A DNA stretch of 28,172 nucleotides from a virus: the IMG/VR virus record IMGVR_UViG_3300017755_000068, positions 1-28,172 of that record. One strand, written 5' to 3'. Of this stretch, positions 1,926-8,023 are shown piece after piece. Below the pieces are notes generated by a model. It saw nothing but the letters and a program-made list of their open reading frames with translations, was not told the origin of the DNA and ran no database searches. Made by a program: the position numbers and the translations under genes. Within the stretch, counting starts at the first letter, position 1, and every line of letters starts with the position of its first letter.

Positions 1926-2109
1926 TGTCTGCTCTCCAGTTTGGATTTTGCATATACTCTATTATCAAATCTCTGGCTGTCCAGCAATCAAGTTCAAAGT
2001 CATCTTCAAGAAAAGGTCTTACTTGTAGTACATTGTACTCACCTTTGTCTCTGAACTTTCTAATGTAGTCAAAGATTTGTTTCTTTTCTTTATCACCTAA
2101 TTTATCCAT
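1918..2109 (-). CDS. Hypothetical protein, 63 aa
   Basis: Not recognised. Small acidic-basic protein with a helical start (DKEKKQIFDYIRKFRDKG) and the segment LEDDFELDCWTARDLI. It overlaps the ArdC-like gene by 13 bases and has AGGAG six bases upstream of its ATG, so it belongs to the same transcript and is probably expressed after the antirestriction gene by re-initiation. Confidence 0.6.
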   Translation of the reverse strand: MDKLGDKEKKQIFDYIRKFRDKGEYNVLQVRPFLEDDFELDCWTARDLIIEYMQNPNWRADNG

Positions 2110-3050
2110 TCGGCTCTCCTATAATTTATATTTGATGTGTGATGTTGATAGTCTTCATACAATATGTTTGCTGAATACACAGCAGTCTCTTGTACTGGTA
2201 CATTTTGCATTAGATAATCAACGGCCTTTTGTGCATCTGAACTTGCACTCCATAATACACTTGGCTTTTCTTTTAGTATCTTTATCCAAGATTTAAGATA
2301 GCTTAGTGTATCTGATTGACGTTCACTATATATACCAAACTTTGCACATAAGAATGAAGCACCCAGCTCTGCAACTAATTCTTCTCTGGCATACACATCT
2401 TCATTACGAATCTTTTGTGTGATACCATCTCTGTCTAGCCTGTGCTTTGCTCCTGTTGCGTGTATATATTCGTGGAACATTGTACTGTAGTAACCATTGG
2501 TTGACTTGAACCATTTGGTTTCTGGTAAATGAACAGCGTCTTCACTGATTCTGTAGTATGCTCTGCGTGTATCGCTGTGTTTAGTTTTGATATCACAACT
2601 CTTTAAGAAAGCATCTATGTCTTGGTTAGCTGTGAACTCAAGCTCAACCTCTGGCTTGTCGATAAATTTCTCTGGCAAGTTTTCTACTTGGTCCTTGTTC
2701 CATACTGGATAGGCTGAGAAACCACCAGCATATTTATCTCCAGTTTCTTCATCAGTTTTTATGTATGGACGGATAGCAAACTGTAGCCCAGCTTTGCTAC
2801 CTTTCTTTAGTTTACCACCTACACTATTCCATTGTTTGATTGTCGCCCAATCATTACTGGAATAGTTATACATCTGTGATGCAAACCATAACCACATTGC
2901 ATTGCCACCACTAAACTCTATGTTACTTACAACATTTCTTGGTGGCGTAACTGCTCCGTGCCAGGGGGCTTCCCACCCACTGGCACTCGCAACACCTGAT
3001 TCTAGATTCTTGATTATCTCCTCGACAATCTGTTGCTGTTTACTTGGCAT
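2097..3050 (-). CDS. ArdC-like antirestriction protein with zincin-type metallopeptidase domain
   Basis: 317 aa. The N-terminal half (about residues 5-130) matches the ArdC/TraC N-terminal ssDNA-binding domain pattern: helix, WEAPWHGAVTPPRN, SGGNAMWLW, then WNSVGGKLKKGSKAG. The C-terminal half carries H193-E-Y-I-H197 followed by ATGAKHRLDR, and EELVAELGASF (about 223-233), which supplies the usual third ligand region of this zincin family. ArdC-type proteins are known to shield incoming DNA from host restriction. The ATG at 3050 overlaps the previous gene by 11 bases and follows GGGG-AAAA. An early gene that protects the phage chromosome on entry fits its place in the minus-strand operon. The last 30 residues are poorly conserved in character and may be a lineage-specific tail. 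Confidence 0.85.
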   Translation of the reverse strand: MPSKQQQIVEEIIKNLESGVASASGWEAPWHGAVTPPRNVVSNIEFSGGNAMWLWFASQMYNYSSNDWATIKQWNSVGGKLKKGSKAGLQFAIRPYIKTDEETGDKYAGGFSAYPVWNKDQVENLPEKFIDKPEVELEFTANQDIDAFLKSCDIKTKHSDTRRAYYRISEDAVHLPETKWFKSTNGYYSTMFHEYIHATGAKHRLDRDGITQKIRNEDVYAREELVAELGASFLCAKFGIYSERQSDTLSYLKSWIKILKEKPSVLWSASSDAQKAVDYLMQNVPVQETAVYSANILYEDYQHHTSNINYRRAEWIN

Positions 3051-3895: not shown

Positions 3896-3916
3896 TCCAA
3901 CCTCCTCAGGTTTAGT

Positions 3917-4048
3917 TTAAGTTAATGGTACACCGAAAAAAGCATACAAGTAAATAAATATTATATAGAGTATAGCACATAGTAATATTAACTTTACTGC
4001 TTCTATTATATACTCTTTTATTTCATCTATTATTCTATCTATCTTCAT
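3917..4048 (-). CDS. Small single-span membrane protein, 43 aa
   Basis: Short gene preceded by GGAGG six bases before the ATG. The product begins with a charged amphipathic stretch (MKIDRIIDEIKEYI), then a hydrophobic run of about 20 residues (roughly 19-39, LILLCAILYIIF and on) and a short tail. This is a plausible inner-membrane peptide with the N-terminus inside. It lies 21 bases before the next gene. It could be an early membrane-active or exclusion peptide; it is too short and badly placed to be called a holin. Confidence 0.5.
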   Translation of the reverse strand: MKIDRIIDEIKEYIIEAVKLILLCAILYIIFIYLYAFFGVPLT

Positions 4049-4097
4049 AACTTACCTCCATTGTAATACAGATAGCTTACTAAATTAGGAAAGACTT

Positions 4098-4137
4098 GTC
4101 AATGCCAGCTCGAATGAGCTGTGCATTTAGCATTGAC
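4098..4137. repeat. Nested inverted repeat (hairpin), left edge of the hairpin-rich island
   Basis: GTCAATGC (4098-4105) pairs perfectly with GCATTGAC (4130-4137); inside it CAGCTC (4106-4111) pairs with GAGCTG (4116-4121) around a GAAT loop. The flanks TGCCAGCT and AGCTGTGCA recur in another hairpin at 5677-5695, 1.5 kb away, so this is one copy of a dispersed hairpin module. Confidence 0.6.
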
Positions 4138-4203
4138 TAGGGTTTCCAATTTGGTATTGCGATTCATCATCTTAATAATAAATAAATTTTTCGACCTTTT
4201 CAT
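4099..4203 (-). CDS. Possible small protein, 34 aa
   Basis: A 34-codon frame (MKRSKNLFIIKMMNRN start) with GGGAG six bases before its ATG. The ATG overlaps the TGA of an even shorter frame (22 codons, 4200-4268), as in coupled genes. Its last third is encoded by the nested hairpin at 4098-4137, which argues that the DNA may be constrained as structure and not as protein. Low confidence. Confidence 0.25.
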   Translation of the reverse strand: MKRSKNLFIIKMMNRNTKLETLVNAKCTAHSSWH

Positions 4204-4310
4204 CTGGAACTCCCTACCTCCCCATAGATTACCACGTCATCAACTATATCATCTGTTAACTGTGTCATTCGTACAGCTCTCGTAAGGACGCTTCATCAAC
4301 GGCATAACTA

Positions 4311-4354
4311 CCACGCTCAGCGTGGCAATTCGTCGTGTCGCAAGTTAGACACGA
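4311..4354. repeat. Two consecutive hairpins downstream of the 176-aa gene
   Basis: CCACGC (4311-4316) pairs with GCGTGG (4320-4325) around TCA, and TCGTGTC (4333-4339) pairs with GACACGA (4348-4354). The second hairpin's core is repeated almost exactly at 5045-5062 (16 of 18 bases identical). The stretch 4204-4350 otherwise holds no convincing gene. Confidence 0.55.
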
Positions 4355-4378
4355 AAAAGGGGAGCCGAAGCTCCCCTT
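4352..4378 (-). terminator. Intrinsic terminator of the 176-aa gene
   Basis: AAGGGGAGC (4357-4365) pairs perfectly with GCTCCCCTT (4370-4378). On the minus strand the loop is the extra-stable TTCG tetraloop and the stem is followed by TTTTT, giving a textbook Rho-independent terminator about ten bases after the stop codon. It would separate the 176-aa gene from the rest of the minus-strand operon, at least in part. Confidence 0.85.
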
Positions 4379-4387
4379 GCAATTCGC

Positions 4388-4918
4388 TTACTTCTTAGCG
4401 AATCGCTGACTAGCTACGCTAGTCGTATCTTTGCCGTCATCAAGCTCTGGACGTCTTCTTTCGTCACACCATTTCTGGTAGCCAGCTTTCGTCCAGCCTT
4501 CATCTTTGATGACTTGTAACCAAACTCGTTGCTCAATCTCGTTGGTTATCTCACTCAACTCACACATACCTCGCATACTATCGTGTACATCAAGCACATA
4601 TTCTTTGGGGTTAAGACCTTCTTCAAGGTCTTGGCATATTGCCTTACCCCAATCATTGAACTTCTTGATTACAGTATCAAGTCCATTGTCAGCTTGTGAG
4701 CATCTATAACCTAGCTTATATCTCAAGCTGACGTTATCCTTAAGCCTATCTTCGTCGTTCGGCTTGTAACAGGATTGAGGTATCAATCCTACAAGCTCTT
4801 CGACAACGACGTCGATAGCTTTCTCAGTCTGTGCTGAGAAAGGTGTCTTAAGGTCAGCCCATTTGTATTGGTACTTTTTGTTAAGTTCTGCTACTGTTGT
4901 AATTTTTGATTTAGTCAT
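4388..4918 (-). CDS. Hypothetical protein, 176 aa, first gene of the leftward unit
   Basis: Not recognised. The ATG at 4918 (MTKSKITTVA) is preferred over the one at 4930 because GGAG lies six bases upstream of it. The protein is helical and charged, with WADLKTPFSAQTEKAIDVV near the start and a C-terminal WTKAGYQKWCDERRRPE segment. It is the first leftward gene next to the divergent non-coding region, has its own strong terminator and could be an immediate-early regulator, but no DNA-binding motif is clear. Its coding sequence is unusual: perfect hairpins at 4382-4403, 4408-4424, 4613-4632 (8 bp), 4762-4796 (13 bp) and 4819-4842 (9 bp). Base use is richer in G+C than the genes further left. 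Confidence 0.65.
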   Translation of the reverse strand: MTKSKITTVAELNKKYQYKWADLKTPFSAQTEKAIDVVVEELVGLIPQSCYKPNDEDRLKDNVSLRYKLGYRCSQADNGLDTVIKKFNDWGKAICQDLEEGLNPKEYVLDVHDSMRGMCELSEITNEIEQRVWLQVIKDEGWTKAGYQKWCDERRRPELDDGKDTTSVASQRFAKK

Positions 4919-4941
4919 TTGATTCTCCATTTATTGAATCG

Positions 4942-4970
4942 TTATATAACAACATTATTGTCATTATACT
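4942..4970. promoter_or_regulatory. Candidate divergent promoter region (-10 hexamers on both strands)
   Basis: Between the ATG of the 176-aa gene and the first stem of the structured region lies an AT-rich 55-base stretch. On the minus strand it holds TATAAT (4963-4968), a perfect -10. On the plus strand the same bases offer TATACT (4965-4970), which would start an RNA at about 4977, exactly where the long structured stem begins. No good -35 hexamer at 16-18 bases is seen for either, so the assignment is tentative. Confidence 0.35.
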
Positions 4971-4973
4971 GCT

Positions 4974-5213
4974 ATCACCCCCACAGCGAATGAACTGTCA
5001 AGAACAAGTGGGTCGTACGCCTTGCACAAAAGAGACTTGTCCGAGTGTCGCAATTCAGACACACGGACCAAGCTTAGATGTGCAAGACCCCTTGTCGGAA
5101 AGAATCTAACTATCCGACTCTTTGTCAGAGCAAAGCAAGGCTTTGTGAGTAGGATAGTTCTATTGTTTTCGGACTTGTTCCTTGATGGTTCAGCTCTTAG
5201 CTGTGGTAGTGAT
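4974..5213 (+). ncRNA. Structured RNA, 5' domain closed by a long composite stem
   Basis: From outside in: ATCAC (4974-4978) with GTGAT (5209-5213); CCACAGC (4981-4987) with GCTGTGG (5200-5206); 4991-5009 with 5173-5192, a 19-bp stem with one bulged C and a tandem G-U. It encloses two branches. Branch A: 5021-5028 with 5079-5086, 5036-5043 with 5064-5072, and GTGTC/GACAC at 5045-5062. Branch B: AACTATCC (5108-5115) with GGATAGTT (5152-5159), containing CAAAGC-AAG-GCTTTG (5131-5145). Positions were read directly from the sequence; the fold is my own pairing by eye. Confidence 0.6.
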
Positions 5214-5384
5214 GTATTCATCATCTTCTTAATAACATCATAAGATTAGTTCATCTCTTCCTATGGACGAGATGGAATCATCTTATCATTCACTACAATA
5301 AACCATACCTTAGTGTGGTTTATATGATGATTGCATATAATCAATGACAATCATTGTTGTTATATACTTCGTTCCCCTTGTAGG

Positions 5385-5462
5385 TTTCTCATTCTTAGCA
5401 GCGCTTGTTGCCGAGAAGCAACCAAGCGTGGCTAAGAAGCCAAAGCATAGCTTTGTGAGAAA
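5385..5462 (+). ncRNA. Structured RNA, compact three-way junction
   Basis: TTTCTCA (5385-5391) pairs with TGAGAAA (5456-5462). Directly inside, TTCTTAGC (5392-5399) pairs with GCTAAGAA (5431-5438), extended by CGCTTG/CAAGCG and TTGC/GCAA. Two bases later CAAAGC (5441-5446) pairs with GCTTTG (5450-5455). The three helices meet with almost no unpaired bases. The third arm repeats branch B's inner hairpin at 5131-5149. Confidence 0.55.
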
Positions 5463-5491
5463 GCTCTACCACTACAGCACTAGCGTGCGTA

Positions 5492-5604
5492 GTCGTGCGA
5501 GCGTGAAACTCGTGAGAGTTTTGTATGCACGACCTTTAGTTCCAATCACCGACAGAATTAGCTCGAGCTAGCGACACCTCTGGTGTCTGCTCTCGGACTA
5601 ATTC
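5492..5604 (+). ncRNA. Structured RNA, two extended hairpins including a GNRA-type loop
   Basis: GTCGTGC (5492-5498) pairs with GCACGAC (5527-5533) and encloses AAACTC-GTGA-GAGTTT (5506-5521), a perfect stem with a GNRA tetraloop, a common docking element of folded RNAs. Next, GAATTAG (5555-5561) pairs with CTAATTC (5598-5604) and encloses GACACC-TCT-GGTGTC (5573-5587). Confidence 0.5.
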
Positions 5605-5626
5605 GTGCGAGATTGAATAGCACGCA

Positions 5627-5887
5627 ACCTTTGCTCTGACGTCAACGCATCATCATAGCAAGACTCTGAAGAGCATTGCCAGCTAAAGCTGTGCAATCTC
5701 TTTAGAAGCTAATGATGACATACTAAGACTAATTAGCCAGAGCTTTGCTCGGCTAATCAATTAGACTGCGTTGGTAATGGATAGGCGAAACAAGGTAATC
5801 AATCAATCTTCCACGATAACCCAGCTTAGCTGGGTAGTGGCTTGATTGGTTTACCCCCTCGCCTAGCCATTTAGTCAGAGTAAAGGT
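5627..5887 (+). ncRNA. Structured RNA, 3' multibranch domain closed by a 14-bp long-range stem
   Basis: ACCTTTGCTCTGAC (5627-5640) pairs with GTCAGAGTAAAGGT (5874-5887), 14 pairs with a single G-U, across 233 bases. Inside are two sub-domains. The first is closed by CAACGC (5643-5648) with GCGTTG (5768-5773) and contains a hairpin arm (5650-5718) and the arm 5729-5764. The second is closed by AATGG-A-TAGGCGA (5776-5788) with TCGCCTA-G-CCATT (5859-5871) and contains 5794-5805 with 5843-5855, CCAC/GTGG and CCCAGC-TTA-GCTGGG (5820-5834). Chance formation of such nested long-range pairing is very unlikely. Confidence 0.6.
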
Positions 5888-5923
5888 ACGCAATCTCCGA
5901 TTGCACTTTTCGTTAGAAAAGAT

Positions 5924-5951
5924 TTGACAGTTAGCTAACGAACGCTATAGA
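5924..5951 (+). promoter_or_regulatory. Candidate sigma70-type promoter for the small terminase gene
   Basis: TTGACA (5924-5929), a perfect -35, is followed after 16 bases by TATAGA (5946-5951). A start about seven bases later would fall at 5958-5960, only two to four bases before the terminase ATG, giving a leaderless or nearly leaderless message. This would explain why no Shine-Dalgarno sequence precedes that ATG. The spacer contains the palindrome GTTAGCTAAC (5930-5939), a possible operator. Inferred only. Confidence 0.45.
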
Positions 5952-5961
5952 TTATCCGAAG

Positions 5962-6327
5962 ATGACACAGCAGTTAACACAAAGACAGGTTGCCCTAGTT
6001 GATACACTCGTAGCAACTGGGTGTAGCATAACCCAAGCTTCTCAAGAAGCTGGTTATGCCAAAGGCGAAGCTGGCAGAGTAAGTGCCAGCAAGGCTTTGA
6101 AGCAACCTCACGTCAAAGCATATATGATGTCGCAAGTACAAGAACAGCTCGGTATGAGTGCTACGAAGGCACTCAGTAGGATTGTGTCGCTGTCAGGCGA
6201 CGCTAAATCCGAGTATGTCCAGCTCGAAGCGAGCAAGGACATACTAGACCGAGCTGGGTTCAAGGCACCAGACAAGCATATGCATATTCACGCAGGAGAT
6301 ATCCGCGTGAATATAGACCTGAGCTAA
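5962..6327 (+). CDS. Small terminase subunit (TerS-like)
   Basis: 121 aa. The first 60 residues form a helix-turn-helix of the terminase-small type: LTQRQVALVDTLVATG, then CSITQASQEAGYAKG, then ASKALKQPHVKAYM. The middle is helical (oligomerisation region) and the C-terminus short and polar. TerS recognises the packaging site and regulates the large subunit. It is separated from the large subunit gene by 1.9 kb, a terminator and two genes. The ATG has no good ribosome site. The coding DNA is saturated with hairpins: 6026-6059 (14 bp), 6155-6175, 6186-6201, 6212-6245 (9 bp plus 5 bp), 6284-6314 (10 bp) and 6318-6334, the last with the stop codon TAA as its loop. Packaging sites often lie in or near terS, so this may be functional DNA or RNA structure. 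Confidence 0.75.
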   Translation: MTQQLTQRQVALVDTLVATGCSITQASQEAGYAKGEAGRVSASKALKQPHVKAYMMSQVQEQLGMSATKALSRIVSLSGDAKSEYVQLEASKDILDRAGFKAPDKHMHIHAGDIRVNIDLS

Positions 6328-6515
6328 GCTCAGGGCATAGGCTTGCTAGGTGCCGAAGCTTGACTCGACTAATCCTCCCACGCGCAGACCACGCGTGAGG
6401 ATACCCGAGTTAGTATTCGTTGTCCTCCGTTCGTTGAACACTCACGTCGGTGTTGTGTCGCACACCCTTGCACATATCTTTAGATATGCGAGGGGGGGAC
6501 AAAACTCGACCGAGT
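6318..6515 (+). ncRNA. Structured region downstream of the small terminase gene
   Basis: CCTGAGC-TAA-GCTCAGG (6318-6334) spans the stop codon. ATCCTC and ACGCG (6372-6384) pair with CGCGT and GAGGAT (6392-6402). TTGTCCTCC (6420-6428) pairs with GGGGGACAA (6494-6502), enclosing AACACT/GGTGTT (6437-6454) and CCCTTG-CA-CATATC with GATATG-CGAGGG (6465-6494), another three-way junction. Wobbles (6426/6496, 6469/6490, 6442/6449) again fit the plus strand as RNA. It is either a 3' untranslated structure of the terS message or a separate RNA. From 6540 to 6669 the DNA becomes AT-rich with no gene. Confidence 0.5.
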
Positions 6516-6669
6516 GTTTGGGTCACATCACTAGCACTCAGATTATTTTCCACAAGGTCCGTTTAAGAATCTTCCTTACAATTTATGGCTTTACATTATA
6601 TTATTTGCTTGATAGGTTTGGTGTGTAGTATTATTTTTTTATATTATAAATTCCTTCGACTCCCAACTT

Positions 6670-6705
6670 CCCCCTAGTTTGCGCATTTGCTAGGGGGTTT
6701 TTTTT
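6670..6705 (+). terminator. Strong intrinsic terminator
   Basis: CCCCCTAG (6670-6677) pairs perfectly with CTAGGGGG (6690-6697), followed by eight T. It ends rightward transcripts from the structured RNA and the small terminase gene and insulates them from the late operon. Confidence 0.9.
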
Positions 6706-6712
6706 ATTTGCC

Positions 6713-6718
6713 TATAAT
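6713..6718 (+). promoter_or_regulatory. Possible -10 box of the late operon promoter
   Basis: TATAAT stands directly after the terminator and 45 bases before the first late gene. The best upstream -35-like hexamer, TTGCTA (6687-6692), is 20 bases away, which is long, so an activator or a phage-specific polymerase may be needed. Tentative. Confidence 0.35.
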
Positions 6719-6763
6719 ATTTTTTTCTGCTAAGGCTTGATTATTATTTAAAGGAGAATCAGT

Positions 6764-8023
6764 ATGCCGTTTCATAGTAATCACGGTGGTGGTAGTAGAC
6801 CAGACAGAGAGAGTGGTTCTGACCAACGCCAACAAGAAAAGCTTAGACAAAGAGAAGCAGACAGAAAACAAAAAGAAAGAGACGACAGAGCAAGGGCGCA
6901 GAGAGAAAAGAAAGCTGAGCAAGCACGATTAGCAAAGTCAAGAGCAGAAGCACAAGCTAAGAGACAACGTGAAGCTGATGCATTAAGAAAACAAAAACAA
7001 GCTGAAGCTATTAAAGCAAAGCAACTTAAAGCACAGGAAGAAGCAAAAAGAAAAGCAAGGAACGCAGTTAAAACAGTTCCAAAGAAAACGCCTTCTCAAG
7101 ATTTGCCTAGAGTAATGATGAAACCTCCTCCATCAAAACCAGCAAAACCGAAACCAGCAACTATATTTGGTTATAAAGTAACAGCTCCTAAATCTGATGT
7201 TCAAAAGAAAATAGATTCTGGTCAAGCTACAGTTATAGCAACACGTAAATTAGACAGTGGTAAAAGTTTAATATCTACAAATAAACAAACTGGTAGAATA
7301 ACAACAAAGGCTGAAGAAAACAGAATGGTAAGTGCTGGTAGAAGTTCGACTATGCAAGGTGGCACACGAACATCTAATGTTCCATTACCAATATCAAGAC
7401 CTAAAGCTGGTGGTTCTACTATGGCTGTTAGACAAGTAGACCCTAGTGGAACAAAGACAATGACAGCTCTCACACCAAGAAGACCATCTACACCATTAAC
7501 TGGTCCTGTGTATAGTGGACAACCTTTAACACTTTTTAAATCTGGTGGTCAATCAACAAGGCTAAGCCAACTTGCAAGCAAAACTGGTGGGATATCTAAC
7601 ACTGGTTTAACTGGAGAAAAGGTTGTTACACCTAAAGTTACTATAAAAAAACTTGCACCTATAACTGGTAACAATGATGGTACTACAAGTATAAATACAT
7701 CTATTGGTCTTGTTCCAAAGATAAGTAAACCTACTTCAGATTTTACATTGTTGAGAGGAGCTAAAAGGTTACTGGGTTCTTTTCAAGGTGCTGAACTTAC
7801 GGCAAGAAAGATTTTTGGTAATATTGGTGGTATAGGTTCATCTTTTGGTGGAGGTAGCAACACAGCTACAACAAATACTTTAATAGGTGGTATGGCAAAA
7901 AATATATCTAATTCTGGAAGCTGGTGGAAAAACGCTGGTGATGCTCAGTTAAAAAAGAACAAACAAAACAATGCAAGAGTTAAAGCTCAACTAGGATTAT
8001 CGGCTGGTAAGTCACAGTTTTAA
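6764..8023 (+). CDS. Coiled-coil, low-complexity phage protein between the terminase genes, 419 aa
   Basis: Family not recognised. Residues about 15-110 form a long, extremely charged helix rich in K, E, R, Q and A, probably a coiled coil; 110-140 is a Pro/Lys linker (KPPPSKPAKPKPA); the rest is Ser/Thr/Gly-rich and probably disordered, with a Gly stretch (GGIGSSFGGGSN) and a C-terminal basic patch. AGGAG precedes the ATG by seven bases. It opens the late operon and overlaps the next gene (TAATG). A virion or assembly role is suggested by position only. Gly/Ser-rich composition is like that of internal or ejected proteins. Confidence 0.7.
   Translation: MPFHSNHGGGSRPDRESGSDQRQQEKLRQREADRKQKERDDRARAQREKKAEQARLAKSRAEAQAKRQREADALRKQKQAEAIKAKQLKAQEEAKRKARNAVKTVPKKTPSQDLPRVMMKPPPSKPAKPKPATIFGYKVTAPKSDVQKKIDSGQATVIATRKLDSGKSLISTNKQTGRITTKAEENRMVSAGRSSTMQGGTRTSNVPLPISRPKAGGSTMAVRQVDPSGTKTMTALTPRRPSTPLTGPVYSGQPLTLFKSGGQSTRLSQLASKTGGISNTGLTGEKVVTPKVTIKKLAPITGNNDGTTSINTSIGLVPKISKPTSDFTLLRGAKRLLGSFQGAELTARKIFGNIGGIGSSFGGGSNTATTNTLIGGMAKNISNSGSWWKNAGDAQLKKNKQNNARVKAQLGLSAGKSQF

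Follow-up and report, generated by a model that had tools for sequence, protein, structure and literature searches.

Plus-strand base pairing is under selection in the gap that separates two divergent gene blocks across a family of marine phages, as the computational comparison of relatives shows. In this gap closing stems are retained while entire sub-structures are swapped, and both the sequence and the identity of the arms change quickly. In the window (the whole stretch analysed here, 28,172 nucleotides, a viral record of 28 kb) the gap lies at 4931–5961. Judging from sequence comparisons, the constraint probably falls on a structured RNA of the plus strand, and we tentatively read the region as a fast-evolving plus-sense RNA that would serve in cis as a leader of the transcript of the terminase small subunit (TerS) and the late genes.

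The window carries leftward genes followed by a rightward block, and the skew changes at the divergent gap. The rightward block opens with TerS (5962–6327, plus strand; PHROG 2538, E = 3e-12; Pfam Terminase_2), which is followed by TerL, a head–tail adaptor, and the major head protein. Compared by TerL, the nearest annotated phage, with 66% identity, is Pelagibacter phage EXVC031P Hodr, whose host is Pelagibacter HTCC1062 and whose gap lies at L082:6594–6930. Relatives of TerS are found by the hundreds in IMG/VR; the group is a family of podovirus-like marine phages, large and widespread in the ocean, which includes the cultured Hodr. The Pfam model for single-subunit RNA polymerase had no match in 14 relatives, but the controls were without a match as well.

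Divergent from TerS is an orphan gene of 180 aa (4388–4930, minus strand), for which Pfam and PHROG searches gave no match. It has just three relatives, near-identical, and the changes in them fall mostly at third codon positions. Translation more likely begins at its second ATG (4918), which GGAG precedes; a comparable start is present in the relative L012, where the longer frame contains a stop codon. The leftward genes also include an ArdC-like anti-restriction protein with an MPTase-PolyVal domain (2097–3050). Downstream of TerS, a 419-aa gene belonging to no family (6764–8023) shows 15–20% nucleotide change in the near relatives L084 and L085, against about 1–2% in its neighbours, which suggests that this gene is changing fast or has been exchanged.

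The plus strand of region 4974–5940 has a minimum free energy (MFE) of -386 kcal/mol, compared with -254.6 ± 6.5 kcal/mol for dinucleotide shuffles (z = -20.3); the minus strand gives z = -17.6. The pairs of the MFE structure have a mean probability of 0.90, and in a 200-nt scan the excess was about -10 to -25 inside the region and averaged -2.2 kcal/mol elsewhere in the window. The ornate fold described in the original prediction is recovered: its long-range stems are nested, its junctions have several branches, and the GNRA hairpin has the loop GUGA. Four domains are predicted on the plus strand. Domain I (4943–5366) is closed by an outer stem at 4943–4965/5343–5366 (pair probabilities 0.92–0.97) and has two arms, both branched according to fold and pair probabilities (4981–5206 and 5212–5336), with a tip hairpin at about 5042–5067 that is exchanged in near relatives. 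Domain II (5380–5467) is a branched stem with two hairpins; Domain III (5483–5625) is branched and includes the GUGA hairpin at about 5505–5522; and Domain IV (5627–5887) is a three-way junction closed by a stem of 14 bp (5627–5640/5874–5887, probability 0.99).

The gap is not the limit of the excess pairing, which spans about 4300 to 6520 and includes the genes on either side. When synonymous codons were shuffled with the protein and codon usage unchanged, TerS reached z = -11.1 (the most extreme value among 47) and the orphan gene z = -12.6; for the first 543 nt of TerL, of the major head protein, and of ArdC, the values were +0.3, -2.9, and -5.5, so ArdC is moderately structured too. TerS folded together with its tail (5962–6520) has z = -13.4, and the structured tail itself (6328–6520, plus strand) is probably part of the TerS transcript. 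In this combined fold, all six silent TerS changes of L085 keep a plus-strand pair or are unpaired. Pairing through TerS is what a transcript continuing through this gene would show. The strong codon structure of TerS and the orphan gene is mostly peculiar to this phage, unlike most relatives, and the two genes show almost as much excess pairing on one strand as on the other, which leaves room for a cause at the DNA level.

The corresponding gap was analysed in 43 relatives, with the window and Hodr in addition, and then in a wider sample of about 100 loci, where it is usually folded as well and its length varies from about 150 to 1386 nt; in L012 and L092 the automatic extraction took an ORF as the upstream gene and shortened the gap. 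Most of the 43 gaps are significantly folded (z from -3 to -13). The plus-strand MFE is lower than or equal to that of the minus strand in every gap, those of the window and Hodr included, and shuffling each strand separately favoured the plus strand in 33 of 41 gaps. At the nucleotide level, the window gap could be aligned by blastn only to L083–L085, near-identical contigs, among the TerS relatives, and the search of cultured phages with the region returned only 35-nt matches at chance level. Motifs common to clades inside the gap are essentially limited to the ribosome site of the minus-strand gene and a GCGAAGC mini-hairpin, besides some 7-mers hardly more frequent than in shuffles. The plus strand is enriched in GCGAAGC/GAA mini-hairpins; GNRA accounts for 7 of its 155 perfect-stem tetraloops and for one on the minus strand, about the chance level. 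The absence of a known RNA family, which had been expected from the letters, agrees with the Rfam searches at gathering and relaxed thresholds: there was no match in the window or in 26 relatives at the gathering score, and none at E ≤ 5 in 3900–6900.

A selected RNA stem of the plus strand tolerates a G.U mismatch, not an A.C mismatch. For the strand test, folds were built without G.U pairs, and isolated mismatches inside good helices were counted. The G.U:A.C counts were 44:7 on the plus strand and 6:45 on the minus strand, compared with 34:21 in shuffles; with one gap per clade they were 36:8, and the coding control gave 8:9. The window alone presented 4:1, numbers too small to decide. Single-stranded DNA (ssDNA) of the plus strand would yield a bias of equal sign.

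Covariation in homologues, whose absence the original prediction had named as one possible refutation, is present in this family. Over 94 aligned gap pairs, double changes at predicted pairs kept the pairing in 583 cases and broke it in 135 (81% kept, against 41% in the coding control), and since these counts ignore shared ancestry, the comparison with controls weighs more than the totals. Per single change there were 0.50 double changes, against 0.17 in the coding control, and pair-keeping single changes made up 29% on the plus strand, 20% on the minus strand, and 24% in the control on both strands. For the structure of the window itself, covariation lends weak backing, since the three relatives close to it hardly differ in sequence and the others are unalignable.

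A covariance model of the three-way junction adjoining TerS on its upstream side was built from L016 and L006, and it found L087 and L003/L090 (E = 5e-24 and 6e-9) with place and strand unchanged. The joint alignment of this domain, which is fitted to its model and thus biased in favour of pairing, has 99.1% of its cells paired and two-sided change in 23 of 55 pairs, with 1–6 in slid controls. The closing stems of L087 and L003 have largely different letters and intact pairing. The retrained model, R3, adds L012/L092 (E = 4e-9) and gave no match in the window or in further clades; the TerS-proximal domain is common to five lineages only. A model of a window arm, R2, matched nothing elsewhere but the window's own opposite strand. 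Domain IV resembles the covariation-supported domain of the relatives in position and topology, a resemblance that does not imply homology.

Entire arms are swapped between close relatives. In L086 and L088 the first domain retains its closing stem, but the interiors are unrelated; the TerS of L087 equals that of L086 over the matched residues, yet much of the gap is unalignable. In L084 and L085, the tip hairpin of the window, CCGAGTGTCGCAATTCAGACACACGG, is swapped for AGCCACGCT, and the remaining gap changes affect unpaired positions, with one exception in L084. Among 215 replaced blocks, many of which overlap and which were drawn from related gap pairs, the value for pairs crossing the borders was 0.40, compared with 0.55 at random positions; block swaps tend to respect sub-structures. 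Point change in the L085 gap is 0.7%, mostly in the tip and one loop, against 6 of 122 third codon positions in TerS, and this slow change may be due to a recombination tract.

The hairpin GTGTCGCAA(G/T)T(T/C)AGACAC occurs in nearly identical form at 4335–4352 and 5045–5062; the second copy is the tip missing in L084 and L085, hinting that tips may be copied from site to site. In the contig L083 (1–123), the left flank is joined to the reverse complement of 5640–5518 at a perfect 12-bp inverted repeat (5124–5135/5629–5640), both arms of which lie inside the region; the junction could be an inversion, a template switch, or a chimera of assembly or amplification.

Signals for transcription were sought at both ends of the gap. 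The TATACT box (4965–4970) had been proposed as a -10 element located where the first stem starts. The letters are there, but the fold does not start at that point: the outer stem begins at about 4943 and its left side runs into the box. The promoter itself is not supported, as the box lacks both a good -35 and a conserved equivalent in relatives, which share no plus-strand promoter at the left end of the gap. On the minus strand, a possible promoter of the orphan gene (4957–5002) is composed of TTGACA (5002–4997), GTGGGGG, and a TATAAT-like box near 4963–4968, with non-canonical spacing and in overlap with the structured region; L012 has a comparable TTGAGG..GTGGGGG arrangement, and no canonical minus-strand promoter is conserved in relatives. 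The candidate TerS promoter, TTGACA-16-TATAGA (5924–5951, plus strand; TTGACA-18-TAGATT in the version of the promoter scanner), lies so near the ATG that its transcript would be nearly leaderless. Almost every relative has a TTGACA in front of TerS. The terminator scan indicated a short hairpin followed by ACTTTT (5890–5904, plus strand) as a terminator candidate, if a weak one; in relatives the hairpin in this place has no T-run, and no consistent or conserved terminator was found before TerS among them.

The reading that we tentatively favour is a large structured RNA of plus sense with which the late (structural) gene block opens, and which would be read rightwards into TerS as a long TerS/late leader. 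It ranks as the most likely because no conserved terminator precedes TerS and the TerS codons share the constraint in this phage. The bulk of pairing, and not a specific sequence, would set the amount, retention, or translation of the TerS/late mRNA, with folding, RNase resistance, or attenuation as candidate means of control; a second TerS transcript would start from the TTGACA promoter, and in this phage the pairing constraint would extend through TerS itself. Counting against the leader are the lack of a conserved left-end promoter, the failure of the relatives' models to match the window and of the window-arm model to match anything elsewhere, the slight strand asymmetry of the window itself (4 G.U to 1 A.C), and the TerS codon structure, which is mostly this phage's own. 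In addition, the TTGACA promoter lies between the structured region and TerS, so that TerS can dispense with the leader.

Other explanations account for part of these data. A free-standing large noncoding RNA that acts in trans, in the manner of GOLLD or ROOL, from an unrecognised left-end promoter and with its end before TerS, is somewhat unlikely: the size of 0.3–1.3 kb, the multi-branched form, the plus-strand covariation, the separate promoter of TerS, and the weak terminator-like hairpin of the window would suit it, but no core is conserved across clades, arms are replaced rapidly, GNRA is unenriched, neither promoter nor terminator is conserved, and the pairing runs on through TerS in this phage. 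We consider it unlikely, too, that the region belongs to a new class of phage RNA set by position, strand, and amount of pairing instead of sequence or a fixed fold; such RNAs would have cassette-like arms and a late-phase role beside terminase, for example as structural decoy or scaffold, and in some phages the need for pairing would have extended to the codons of TerS and the gene opposite. That the constraint acts on plus-strand ssDNA, with replication, primosome assembly, or packaging starting between the divergent blocks, is quite unlikely. Kilobase nested folds and the G.U tolerance by covariation suit RNA more easily, and an origin or packaging motif was not identified; on the other hand, the divergent position with its skew change, the plus-strand mini-hairpins, and the nearly equal excess on both strands of the flanking genes are in favour of DNA, and G.T is milder than A.C in DNA hairpins as well.

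A purely mutational origin, in which template switching at quasi-palindromes makes or perfects hairpins and produces concerted changes of two arms with little function, would be in line with the swapped tips and arms, with the hairpins that fill synonymous sites too, and with the near-relative contig inverted at the 12-bp repeat. It is very unlikely nonetheless, for it does not predict the strand bias of G.U over A.C, the gap point change of L085 is far slower than that of third codon positions (recombination being possible), and long-range nested three-way junctions outlast the full replacement of stems. Extremely improbable are unrecognised small protein-coding genes. Three ORFs of 73–86 aa are present in the gap, but the search for families and relatives gave nothing meaningful, two of them are frameshifted in L084 and L085, and no protein-like conservation was seen; these ORFs were rejected as genes, and the kilobase is without a credible gene, as first described.

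Among known RNAs, GOLLD is large and multi-branched, occurs in phages and prophages, and is known from marine samples too, and ROOL is one class with a complex secondary structure that forms a nanocage (PMC12286853). The gap resembles GOLLD in size, multi-branched fold, and phage and marine setting, and ROOL in size range, phage location, and ornate fold. However, no Rfam model of either matches this gap; the 3′ region of GOLLD is universally conserved, whereas no region is conserved throughout the gap family; GOLLD is often linked to tRNA genes, whereas this window has no tRNA; and the gap RNA, in which no common fold was found, exchanges its arms. GNRA loops usually abound in highly evolved tertiary RNAs. 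The proposed likeness to GOLLD and ROOL as a kind of molecule is therefore not sustained, given the lack of a single conserved fold, the swapped arms, the unenriched GNRA, the missing tRNA, and the pairing through TerS.

The pRNA of phi29, a structured RNA with a part in DNA packaging, has about 174 nt, is conserved in phi29-like phages, and works without TerS. Its likeness to the gap is limited to the position adjoining a terminase gene; this phage has normal TerS and TerL, and there is no sequence or Rfam link, pRNA families included. The Q/6S leader of lambda and put of HK022 are structured plus-sense RNAs at the start of operons, upstream of the terminase genes in the late case. Lambdoid leaders and antitermination sites are short or sequence-specific, while the gap here has about 150–1400 nt and its sequence is not conserved. 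The literature on structured or noncoding RNA near terminase genes or in pelagiphages does not describe this element, which is weak evidence, as subscription papers were mostly outside the scope.

Large phage RNAs supported by covariation are few, and the fixed place of this one in a widespread ocean group that includes a cultured Pelagibacter phage makes it testable. Its pairing outlasts the replacement of sequence and arms, a pattern absent from the RNA-family database; family-based searches such as Rfam would miss such an RNA.

In L018, L031, L045, L066, L069, and many other relatives, the TTGACA located 20–70 nt upstream of TerS is followed, at the expected place of the -10 box, by two G-runs, GGGGGGG-AACACAA-GGGGGGG with variants. 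This element, which is absent from the window, may be a phage promoter of unusual form or a site for a protein.
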